Translations under genes and position numbers: made by a program
NCBI RefSeq assembly: GCF_000163295.1
Contig: NZ_GG700527.1
Span: 1,009,695-1,072,733 of the forward strand
Direction: 5' to 3'
From: Anaerococcus vaginalis ATCC 51170
GTDB lineage: Bacteria > Bacillota > Clostridia > Tissierellales > Peptoniphilaceae
Length of the DNA: 63,039 nucleotides
Part shown: positions 41,811 through 45,130 of the stretch, in pieces
Position numbering within the stretch: the stretch's first letter is position 1
Layout: every line of letters starts with the position of its first letter
The notes under the pieces: generated by a model
Told to the model about the DNA's origin: nothing
Databases searched by the model: none
What the model saw: only the letters and a program-made list of their open reading frames with translations

Positions 41811-42935
41811 TTATATTATTTCAATAAAAAATTCATTTGATAAATCAAAACCCTTGTGAGTAAATCTAATCCTATCATCAATTTTAAAAAATCCAAGTTT
41901 CAAAAATTTTTCAACAGGCTCACTATACTTTTCTAATAAGGATTGCCCAAATATATTTTCAAATTCTTTTAAATTAATTCCAGAAGTTTCTCTTAATTTA
42001 AAAATTATATATTCTTTTTCCCTTTCATCTTTTGAAATAAATTCCCTAAATTCTATTGGAAATTTTCCTTCATTAATTAATTTTTCATATTTTACAAAAT
42101 TTTTTACGTTATTATATCTTACATTTGACAAAAATCCAGAAGCTCCAAGACCAAAGGCAAGGTATCCACCTTCTGACCAATATTTTTTATTGTGGTAAGA
42201 TTCAAATCCCTTTTTTGAAAAATTAGAAATTTCATATCTATCTAATCCTAAATTTTTTAAATATTTTTCTATATAAGAAAAAATATCTCTTTCCAAATCA
42301 TCATCCATAAGTTTAAGTTTATCTTTTTTATAAAGACTATAAAAATGTGAACCTTTTTCAAGAATTAAAGAATAATAAGATAAATGTTCTGGATTTATTT
42401 TTTTTATTATCTCCAAATCATTCTTTATAGAATCAAAATTTCCACCAGGCAGATTTAAAATCATATCTAAAGAAAGATTATCAAAACCTGCTTTTCTTAT
42501 ATTTTCTATATCTTTTAAGACAATTTCCTTATTATGGTCTCTACCAATTTTTTTTAAAACTTTATCATCAAAAGATTGGACACCAAGAGAAATTCTATTT
42601 ATTCCCAAGTTCTTGTAGGCTTTTAATTTCTCCAAAGTCAAAGAATTTGGATTTGCCTCAATTGTAAATTCTTTTACATTACTTAAATCAAAATTTTTCA
42701 AAATTTCTACAAGCTCATCTATATAATGATAATCTACGTAAGTTGGCGTACCTCCACCAATATAAATAGAATCGACTTCTACGTTCATATTTTTTTGGTA
42801 CAAGATTATTTCTTTTTTTAAATTTTCAAAATATGAAGCAATCCAAGATTCTAAATTTTGAAAGGCTGTAAAATCGCAGTAAAAGCATTTTTTCTTACAA
42901 AAAGGAATGTGAATATAGATTCCAATTTTTTCCAT
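41811..42935 (-). CDS. hemW: Radical SAM heme chaperone HemW (HemN-like)
   Basis: 374 residues. GIYIHIPFCKKKCFYCDFTAF has the radical SAM CxxxCxxC close to the N-terminus, then IYIGGGTPTYVDY, NRISLGVQSFDD and the HemN C-terminal domain. The C-x-x-x-C-x-x-C followed by F rather than HemN's extra Cys points to HemW, proposed to insert heme, rather than to coproporphyrinogen oxidase. The order lepA-hemW-hrcA is the usual Firmicute one. Here a 363-bp fold-back element separates it from lepA, so its transcription may not depend on lepA. AAGGAG precedes ATG. Confidence 0.9.
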   Translation of the reverse strand: MEKIGIYIHIPFCKKKCFYCDFTAFQNLESWIASYFENLKKEIILYQKNMNVEVDSIYIGGGTPTYVDYHYIDELVEILKNFDLSNVKEFTIEANPNSLTLEKLKAYKNLGINRISLGVQSFDDKVLKKIGRDHNKEIVLKDIENIRKAGFDNLSLDMILNLPGGNFDSIKNDLEIIKKINPEHLSYYSLILEKGSHFYSLYKKDKLKLMDDDLERDIFSYIEKYLKNLGLDRYEISNFSKKGFESYHNKKYWSEGGYLAFGLGASGFLSNVRYNNVKNFVKYEKLINEGKFPIEFREFISKDEREKEYIIFKLRETSGINLKEFENIFGQSLLEKYSEPVEKFLKLGFFKIDDRIRFTHKGFDLSNEFFIEII

Positions 42936-42960
42936 ATTTTCTCCTTAAATTTTTGCAAAT

Positions 42961-43327
42961 TAAAAGTTAGGACTTATCCTCACTTCAGATTGATAAAAGT
43001 ATTCAAAGCCTCACGCTAAGAATATCATACGGAAAAAATTGATTTGATTTCAAATTTTAAAATTCGTCAAAAATCGCACTCTATAAATTAAAGCTATGAT
43101 TAATTATCAAATATATTAAATTCAATTAAATTTAATTCTTTGTTTTATTCCGAGGGATAAATATTAAAATCGTGCCACTGGCACAATTTTAAGCTATTTA
43201 TCTATCATCGCTTTAGCGAGTTTGCGATTTTAGAATTTTAAAATTTAGAAATCTTCAATTTTTGAAGTTCGATATTCGTGCTTGAGGCTTTGTTACTATC
43301 TGATGTTAAGATTTATCCTAACTTTTA
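42961..43327. mobile_element. MITE-like fold-back element with TA ends
   Basis: A 363-bp non-coding element between lepA and hemW. Perfect ends TAAAAGTTAGGA (from 42961) and TCCTAACTTTTA (to 43327) are inverted and flanked by TA on both sides, like a target duplication. The inverted pairing continues inward, imperfectly, through AAAGCCTCA, GAATATC and then an AT-rich arm (43046-43065 with 43233-43253, and ATCGCA/TGCGAT). A central hairpin (43164-43177 with 43179-43192) has one mismatch. No ORF of note lies inside. The right TA plus the next base form the lepA stop codon. The TA duplication suggests an IS630/Tc1-mariner type enzyme; copies elsewhere are unknown. Confidence 0.65.
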
Positions 43328-45130
43328 TTCATCATCATATTTCAAAACAGCAAGGAAGGCATCTTGTGGAATTTGTACGCTTCCTAATTGTCTCATTCTC
43401 TTCTTTCCTTCTTTTTGTTTTTCTAAAAGTTTTTTCTTTCTTGATATATCTCCACCGTAGCATTTTGCAATTACATCTTTTCTCAAAGCTTTTACGGTTT
43501 CTCTTGCTATAACTTTTGAATCAATTGTTGCTTGAATTGGAATTGCAAATTGTTGTCTTGGAATTTGATCTTTCAATTTTTCGACAATTGATCTTCCCCT
43601 AGCATAGGCAAAATCTTTGTGAACAATTGTAGATAGAGCATCAACTTTATCTTCATTGATTTTTATATCAAGTTTTATTAGATTACTTTCTTCATAATCT
43701 ACAACTTCATAATCCAGTGATGCATATCCTTTTGATCTTGATTTTAAAGAATCAAAAAAGTTATAAATAACTTCGTTCAAAGGAATTTTATATTTTATTG
43801 AAACCCTATTTTCGTCAATATATGACATATCTATAAGATCTCCTCTTCTTGCTTGTGCAAGTTCCATTACAGGTCCTATATATTCTTTTGGAGTCATAAT
43901 TTCAGAAATTGTAATTGGCTCTTTAACATATTCAATTTCTGATGGTGGAGGAAAATCATTAGGATTTTCTAATTTTTTTTCTTCGTGTCCTTTTGTTTTT
44001 ACCTTATAAATTACTGATGGTGCTGTTGCGATTATATCTAAATCATATTCTCTTTCAAGTCTTGCTGTAATAATATCCATGTGCAAAAGACCTAAAAATC
44101 CACATCTTAATCCAACGCCTAGGGCTTGTGAATTTTCTTGTTCAAAAACTAAAGACGCATCATTTACTTGAAGCTTTTCCAAAGAATCTTTTAATTTGTT
44201 AAATGATTCTCCTTCAGCTGGATAAATTCCAGAATAAACCATTGGCAAAACTTCTTTGTAACCAGAAAGTGCTTTTTGTGTTGGATTATTTTTTAAGGTA
44301 ATTGTATCTCCAACTCTAGCATTTCTAATATCTTTTATGCTTGCTTCAATAAATCCTACATCTCCGCTTTTTAATTCTTTGGTTTCAATTCTATTTTTCA
44401 TAGTATATCCTACACCAGTTACTTCGTAGGATTTTCCACTTGCCATCATCAAAATTTCATCGCCTGCTTTTACACTGCCTTCAAAAATTCTAACATAGCA
44501 AATTACTCCCCTGTATGAATCATAATATGAATCAAAAATCAAAGCCTTTAATGGTTTGTCGTCATGATCTTCTGGGGCTGGAACATTTTCTATAATGTCT
44601 TCAAGTACATCTTCAATATTTAAACCAGTTTTTGCAGAAATCAAGGGAATATTTTCTGTATCAAGACCAATTTGATTTTCTATTTCTTCTTTTGTTTCTT
44701 CAACTCTTGCACTTTCAAGGTCAATTTTATTTAAAACTGGCAAAATTTCTAAATCTTGTTCAAGTGCAAGGTAAGTGTTTGCCAAAGTTTGAGCTTCAAC
44801 TCCTTGGGAAGCATCAACAACCAAAATTGCCCCTTCGCAAGCTTTGAGTGATCTTGAAACTTCATAAGTAAAGTCAACATGGCCTGGAGTATCAATCAAA
44901 TTTAAATCGTAAATTTTTCCATCATTAGCCTTGTATTTTAACTTTACTGATTTTAATTTTATGGTAATTCCTCTTTCTTGCTCAAGCTCCATGCTATCTA
45001 GCATTTGATCATTTATATCTCTTTTTGCAACAGACTCAGTTTTTTCTATAAGTCTATCTGCAAGAGTCGATTTTCCATGGTCAATATGAGCAATAATAGA
45101 GAAATTTCTAATATTCTCTTTTTTCTTCAT
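43325..45130 (-). CDS. lepA: Elongation factor 4 (LepA)
   Basis: 601 residues, the usual size. A translational GTPase with [14 protein letters not shown] (G1), [27 protein letters not shown], then the LepA-specific C-terminal domain ([40 protein letters not shown]). It acts on stalled or initiating ribosomes, though the exact role is debated. The start overlaps the lepB stop by 1 nt, so the two are coupled. The stop codon falls on the edge of the fold-back element: the last base of TAA is element sequence. Confidence 0.97.

Follow-up and report, generated by a model that had tools for sequence, protein, structure and literature searches.

The window, a 63,039-nucleotide stretch of the Anaerococcus vaginalis ATCC 51170 genome (G000), carries between hemW and lepA a fold-back element that is best explained, with a probability of roughly 0.87, as a non-autonomous MITE of an IS1182-family insertion sequence (IS), joined at the feet of the lepA terminator hairpin with duplication of the whole hairpin. 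An IS1182-derived MITE family that inserts in intrinsic terminators and duplicates the complete hairpin is well supported with respect to the family, the target and the duplication.

The gap lies between lepA (43325..45130, minus strand; 601-aa ORF), whose terminator was the insertion target, and its downstream neighbour hemW (41811..42935, minus strand; 374-aa ORF), which served as locus finder in the relatives. Read on the plus strand, it contains a hairpin, AAGTTAGGACTTATCCTCACTT (42964-42985), a core, CAGATTGATA...TTACTATCTG (42986-43302), and a second hairpin, ATGTTAAGATTTATCCTAACTT (43303-43324). The core is the 317-bp long form of the MITE (CAGA...TCTG), and its boundaries were placed by the family ends aligned in other copies and by the empty site. 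Its left terminal end (42986..43005, plus strand; family consensus CAGACTGTTGACAAAGTATA) and right terminal end (43283..43302, minus strand; family consensus, reverse strand, CAGAGCGTAGACAAACCCTC) are both decayed. An inner segment (43081..43209) is found in long copies only, the short copies matching query positions 1-120 and 250-367 alone; this segment resembles a separate repeat of the same genome with a hairpin around GTGCCAGTGGCAC, which was seen in tandem at L023 and L048 and within larger elements at L025, L028 and L029.

The fold-back described in the earlier note was reproduced: positions 42950-43340 (391 nt) fold to -124.5 kcal/mol (z -13.6), and none of 100 shuffles (mean -62.7, sd 4.6) reached so low an energy. 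The statement that the element lacks a transposase gene also held, no transposase-like ORF being found within 42961-43327. A promoter scan returned one site against 2.8 expected, which is no excess, and a terminator scan listed the hairpin of the inner segment alone and neither lepA hairpin copy. The label "terminator" for the lepA hairpins is accordingly used on the basis of the stem, the A and T tracts, the gene 3' ends and the count of abutting stems given below. Read on the lepA strand, TTAATTT follows the hemW-side hairpin copy (42964-42985).

The duplication was recognised from the empty site. In Anaerococcus obesiensis ph10 (G046, a same-species genome) the lepA-hemW gap measures 50 bp and holds one hairpin, which reads AAGTTAGGATAAGTCCTAACTT on the lepA strand, without the element. 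The two hairpins of the window match it as 22-bp target duplications, with one mismatch in 22 on the hemW side (42964..42985) and three in 22 on the lepA side (43303..43324). An empty allele, named in advance as the finding whose absence would speak against a mobile element, was thus at hand, and the mobile-element reading stands. The perfect 12-bp outer repeats (42961-42972 and 43316-43327) are real; they are the outer arms of the two lepA terminator hairpin copies and were mistaken for transposon ends. This bears directly on the proposal of an IS630/Tc1-mariner MITE with 12-bp ends TAAAAGTTAGGA and a TA target duplication, to which the perfect repeats and the flanking TA had pointed. The 12-bp sequence, however, is part of the lepA terminator: it occurs in the empty site as well, and other copies have a different sequence there; what the occupied allele gained is not TA but a second hairpin, a whole 22-bp stem-loop, and the ends of the family match those of an IS1182-family element at 18 of 20 positions, so that IS630-type transposition is highly improbable. 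Two further claims fell with the empty site. The lepA stop was said to have been preserved by a base of the element, but the identical TAA is found in G046, so the element did not rebuild it. Nor did the insertion split a lepA-hemW operon, since a terminator-like hairpin separates the two genes even in the empty site and lepA lies within the 1.5-kb hemW flank in only 7 of 30 hemW loci examined (a few of them possibly paralogues). The hairpins are also unlikely to be terminal terminators owned by the element. Most copies are indeed flanked by hairpins, but the hairpin sequence varies from site to site and equals that of the host's empty site; element ownership is refuted at seven sites with an empty allele and is hardly credible elsewhere. 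The arms of a duplicated terminator can mimic the inverted repeats of a transposon, which calls for caution.

The lepA locus was compared among the relatives. The site is also empty in A. porci (G023), G003 (A. vaginalis) has the window MITE in a short form whose ends are similarly unusual, a more diverged MITE copy occupies the gap in G001 and G013, and A. ihuae (G007) has a different MITE within the same lepA hairpin. The lepA terminator has probably been the target of more than one insertion. At the apparently common insertions the inner segment is distributed unevenly, the window copy being long and that of G003 short (L080/L084), and that of G001 long and that of G013 short (L085/L083); conversion between copies in place or mobility of the inner segment could be the cause. 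In G003 (L084) the open frame of hemW spans no more than 222 codons, and the gene looks frameshifted (blastn 85.8% over 1101 nt, three gap openings).

For the lepA copy only, the empty state of G046 might be derived by precise loss through recombination between the hairpin copies rather than ancestral. G003 is more distant from ATCC 51170 in the last 1000 nt of lepA (91.1% identity) than is G046 (98.0%) and yet apparently shares the insertion of the window together with its unusual ends, which favours precise loss. Against this, G003 differs from ATCC 51170 at one position in the last 100 nt of lepA (G046 at none), and an interspecies transfer of the region is also possible. We regard precise loss at this locus as a plausible account with somewhat less than an even chance of being correct.

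The copy catalogue was built from 113 candidate loci in seven Anaerococcus genomes, which were reduced to 101 without repeats and to 100 with a measurable core; removal of three with masked letters left 97 usable copies (73 short, 24 long). Among the matches listed, at least 100 MITE copies occupy 70 distinct sites in the seven genomes. The search of the host genome and its relatives proposed in the earlier note gave, for ATCC 51170 itself, 45 matches that resolved into 13 copies, mostly of 197-201 or 317-322 bp. A match at E 0.001 was obtained in 19 of the 41 genomes searched, weaker outside the seven-genome group. The elements are short, multicopy and devoid of a transposase gene, have inverted ends, are polymorphic between genomes and are accompanied by a target duplication, as expected of MITEs. 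The suggestion of a MITE moved in trans gains from the many copies, their polymorphism and the ends held in common with an IS, and is probably correct as judged from these sequence comparisons.

Other elements of the same genome (L304-L310) share the CAGA..GACAAA ends, have interiors unrelated to the window MITE and, in several cases, similar border hairpins; no BLAST similarity to the window MITE was found among such elements at E 1e-5. Dissimilar interiors would be expected if nothing but the ends counted. These ends are carried by at least one further MITE family of this genome.

Duplication of the target was also assessed at the other copies. A joined-flank test of nine further copies of the host genome recovered a contiguous one-hairpin site in G046 for six and no contiguous site for three; three other copies have the same flanks and the element in both genomes. 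In 67 of the 97 copies the similarity between left and right flank reached the 99th percentile of mispaired flanks, the other 30 falling short of this 1% cut-off; the 95th percentile was reached in 76. The direct flank score was higher in 59 copies, the inverted score in 32 and the two were equal in six, a count that is blurred by palindromes. A Watson-Crick stem of at least six pairs abutted the element on one or both sides in 82 copies (left 72, right 57, both 47), compared with 191 of 2511 windows further away. The 15 copies without an abutting stem of six on either side include several that are decayed or have stems of five. Median folding energies of 26-nt segments were -6.9 kcal/mol on the left, -4.4 on the right and 0.0 far away. 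With an earlier stem measure, which allowed G-T pairs anywhere, no more than 22 of the 97 copies had passed the 99th percentile of shuffles at the left or the right; this measure is a poor null in AT-rich DNA and was replaced by the abutting Watson-Crick stem scored against distant windows. By the test used, none of 35 copies in G000 and G046 falls within an ORF of at least 80 codons, and a gene 3' end was found on the right side in all 34 copies of these genomes with a scorable right side. Individual sites deviate. At L037 the right hairpin copy is, in the loop, the reverse complement of the left, and the corresponding empty site (L272) has one orientation, so the loop was inverted during or after insertion; this inverted copy and the 32 of 97 inverted-higher scores are not predicted by simple duplication. 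The right flank of L041 has no clear hairpin copy.

A candidate source was found in an IS of the IS1182 family (group A). Its membership follows from the curated cut-off of model NF033551 (270 bits), which L112, L113 and L110 exceed with 435.5, 436.1 and 438.6 bits. G042 contains four copies of 1597 bp and G043 one of 1558 bp, all of which begin CAGACTGT.GACAAAGTAG; a fifth G042 copy could be read on one side alone. The five intact copies all stand between direct duplicates, each of them a whole hairpin, with lengths of 26 (one mismatch), 22, 25, 21 and 23 bp. The MITE consensus agrees with the ends of the IS (L112) at 18 of 20 positions left to left and 18 of 20 right to right, compared with 12 and 13 crosswise; these figures refer to the family consensus, the ends of the window copy being decayed. 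MITE and IS are alike at their ends only. Four less complete IS relatives do not have a clean hairpin pair: the two hairpins of L111 differ, the right end of L113 is gone, and at L114 and L115 just one end was recognised. No intact group A IS was found in the host genome, where the searches gave one DUF772 match, in a frame of 98 aa, and one DDE match that contains a stop. The genome does hold L051 (G000:C6:1799768-1802866), a decayed IS1182-family IS with MITE-type ends, its transposase in short broken frames, and a hairpin at either side, the two differing in sequence; intact relatives are present in other Anaerococcus. On this comparison of ends and targets, the IS1182-family element is the probable source of the MITE, and its transposase presumably moved it.

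The MITEs are oriented with respect to genes. With long flanks, each of the 33 G000 and G046 copies that could be scored on both sides (35 examined) had a gene 3' end to its right, 23 of them lying between tandem and ten between convergent genes. With 380-nt flanks, the 70 distinct sites comprised 30 tandem in one sense, two tandem in the other, 21 convergent, one divergent and 16 with one side unscored; the right (GCGT) end was directed toward the upstream gene at 30 of the 32 tandem sites (binomial p 2.5e-7). Counted as single copies the ratio was 50 to 3, and one of the exceptions, L031, scored as divergent, conflicts with the long-flank scoring. Among ten IS copies examined, eight had the 3' end of an ORF at 20-34 nt from their left end, where the transposase starts, a longer antisense ORF being passed over in the scoring of L112 and L132; L051 had the ORF 3' end at the right, and L113 had no left ORF. 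The IS copies thus tend toward the opposite orientation. The bias of the MITEs may reflect biased insertion or selection. Because the IS copies lack it, it may have its origin in selection acting on the MITE rather than in the transposase.

The earlier note had also considered a large structured RNA, with conserved covariation as an argument against mobility. In 70 short copies, 99.1% of cells at 56 arm pairs were paired, 28 cells being compensatory, and none of 500 column shuffles was as high (mean 97.9%), in a control that ignores relatedness. The conserved pairing may reflect an added structural constraint and is no argument against mobility; it could arise from a constraint on the DNA fold, from one on RNA or from copying between the arms. 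A functional RNA, such as a 3'-UTR element or sRNA, as the main reason for the element's presence, with mobility in the past, would agree with this pairing and with the orientation relative to genes. Copying between arms or a DNA-fold constraint gives the same pairing signal, however, and the copies are polymorphic between genomes and located after unrelated genes; a search of Rfam 15 with 42900-43400 gave no match up to E = 1. Such a function is improbable as the main reason for presence. A single-copy structured RNA is ruled out by the many copies, their polymorphism and the same Rfam result.

Under the preferred reading of a MITE mobilised by an IS1182-family element, the transposase would act in trans on CAGA...GACAAA ends and would link these ends to both outer feet of an intrinsic terminator hairpin, perhaps extruded as hairpin or cruciform DNA; gap repair following such a strand transfer would then leave the whole hairpin on each side (22 bp here). 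Recognition of the target by shape and not by sequence implies no fixed duplication length, in line with the 21-26 bp of the intact IS copies. At lepA, the sequence shows that the hairpin on the lepA side has lost the T tract that would follow it in the direction of lepA transcription, whereas the copy next to hemW retains one. The lepA mRNA should therefore run through the MITE; transcripts would pass the first hairpin and the MITE and end at the second hairpin, and the insertion would be nearly neutral for the host. An element that copies a terminator on landing suggests a simple form of harm avoidance.

A broader scheme can be drawn, which we offer as doubtful. The transposase might gauge its target by the size and polarity of the folded terminator, copy the terminator so that host termination persists, and set the orientation of the MITE, perhaps through exposure of the hairpin during termination; two IS subgroups would then display duplication and replacement as outcomes of one structure-guided reaction. 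The second subgroup (group B; L119, L125, L126, L128, L133, L136, L139) consists of Anaerococcus IS1182 elements with a 519-aa transposase (L136, 293 bits on the family model, cut-off 270). These have no flanking hairpins, and an A tract and a T tract often lie at their borders. In L128 and L136, two of seven group B query sites that were aligned to empty relatives, the hairpin of the empty allele is absent from the occupied allele; the IS's own terminal hairpin stands ahead of the right border, followed in L136 by a T run. The L128 empty-site hairpin resembles an IS end and may be a relic, which would make L136 the sole clean case of hairpin loss. At the right border of L133 (G014) a group B element adjoins sequence resembling the window MITE family.

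The genus thus offers many natural cases in which IS1182-type elements are flanked by target duplications of hairpin length, next to a sister group in which the hairpin is lost, and a comparison of the two related enzymes would make structure-guided target choice testable. The window MITE resembles the prokaryotic MITEs of PMC10969869 in being small, AT-rich, intergenic and free of ORFs, with inverted ends and a stable fold; the passages of that source on terminators, stem-loops, IS1182 and target sites describe no terminator targeting with hairpin duplication. Within the open-access matches listed, in the parts consulted, no description of an IS or MITE that duplicates an entire terminator was found. 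Some novelty is taken away by PMC12056078, the relevant part of which describes IS1182-related transposases with or without target duplication that may recognise DNA structure, and by the 2015 review cited in the corresponding part of PMC4923244, according to which some IS1182 members target palindromes; one IS1182 element is listed with a 4-bp duplication in the section of PMC3281130 concerned. The closest known systems are IS1272 and TnSha1 of Staphylococcus, IS1182-family elements that, in the sections of PMC5678879 and PMC4923244 dealing with targets, insert in stem-loops without sequence consensus, often terminators, and hit them repeatedly. The Anaerococcus elements share the IS1182-family transposase, the stem-loop or terminator target and the repeated hits. 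According to the same sections, IS1272 deletes its target stem-loop and leaves no duplication, whereas the window MITE and the five IS copies have the whole stem-loop on both sides; replacement of the IS1272 type was seen in group B only, which belongs to the same family and genus as group A and loses the hairpin in the IS1272 mode. In the model of PMC5678879, joining at the 5' foot leads to duplication of the stem-loop and joining at the 3' foot to its deletion, duplication being a hypothetical branch (pathway b) presented with no actual case in that part of the Discussion. From their sequences, group A and the MITE family would fit the duplication branch of this model, and group B the deletion branch.
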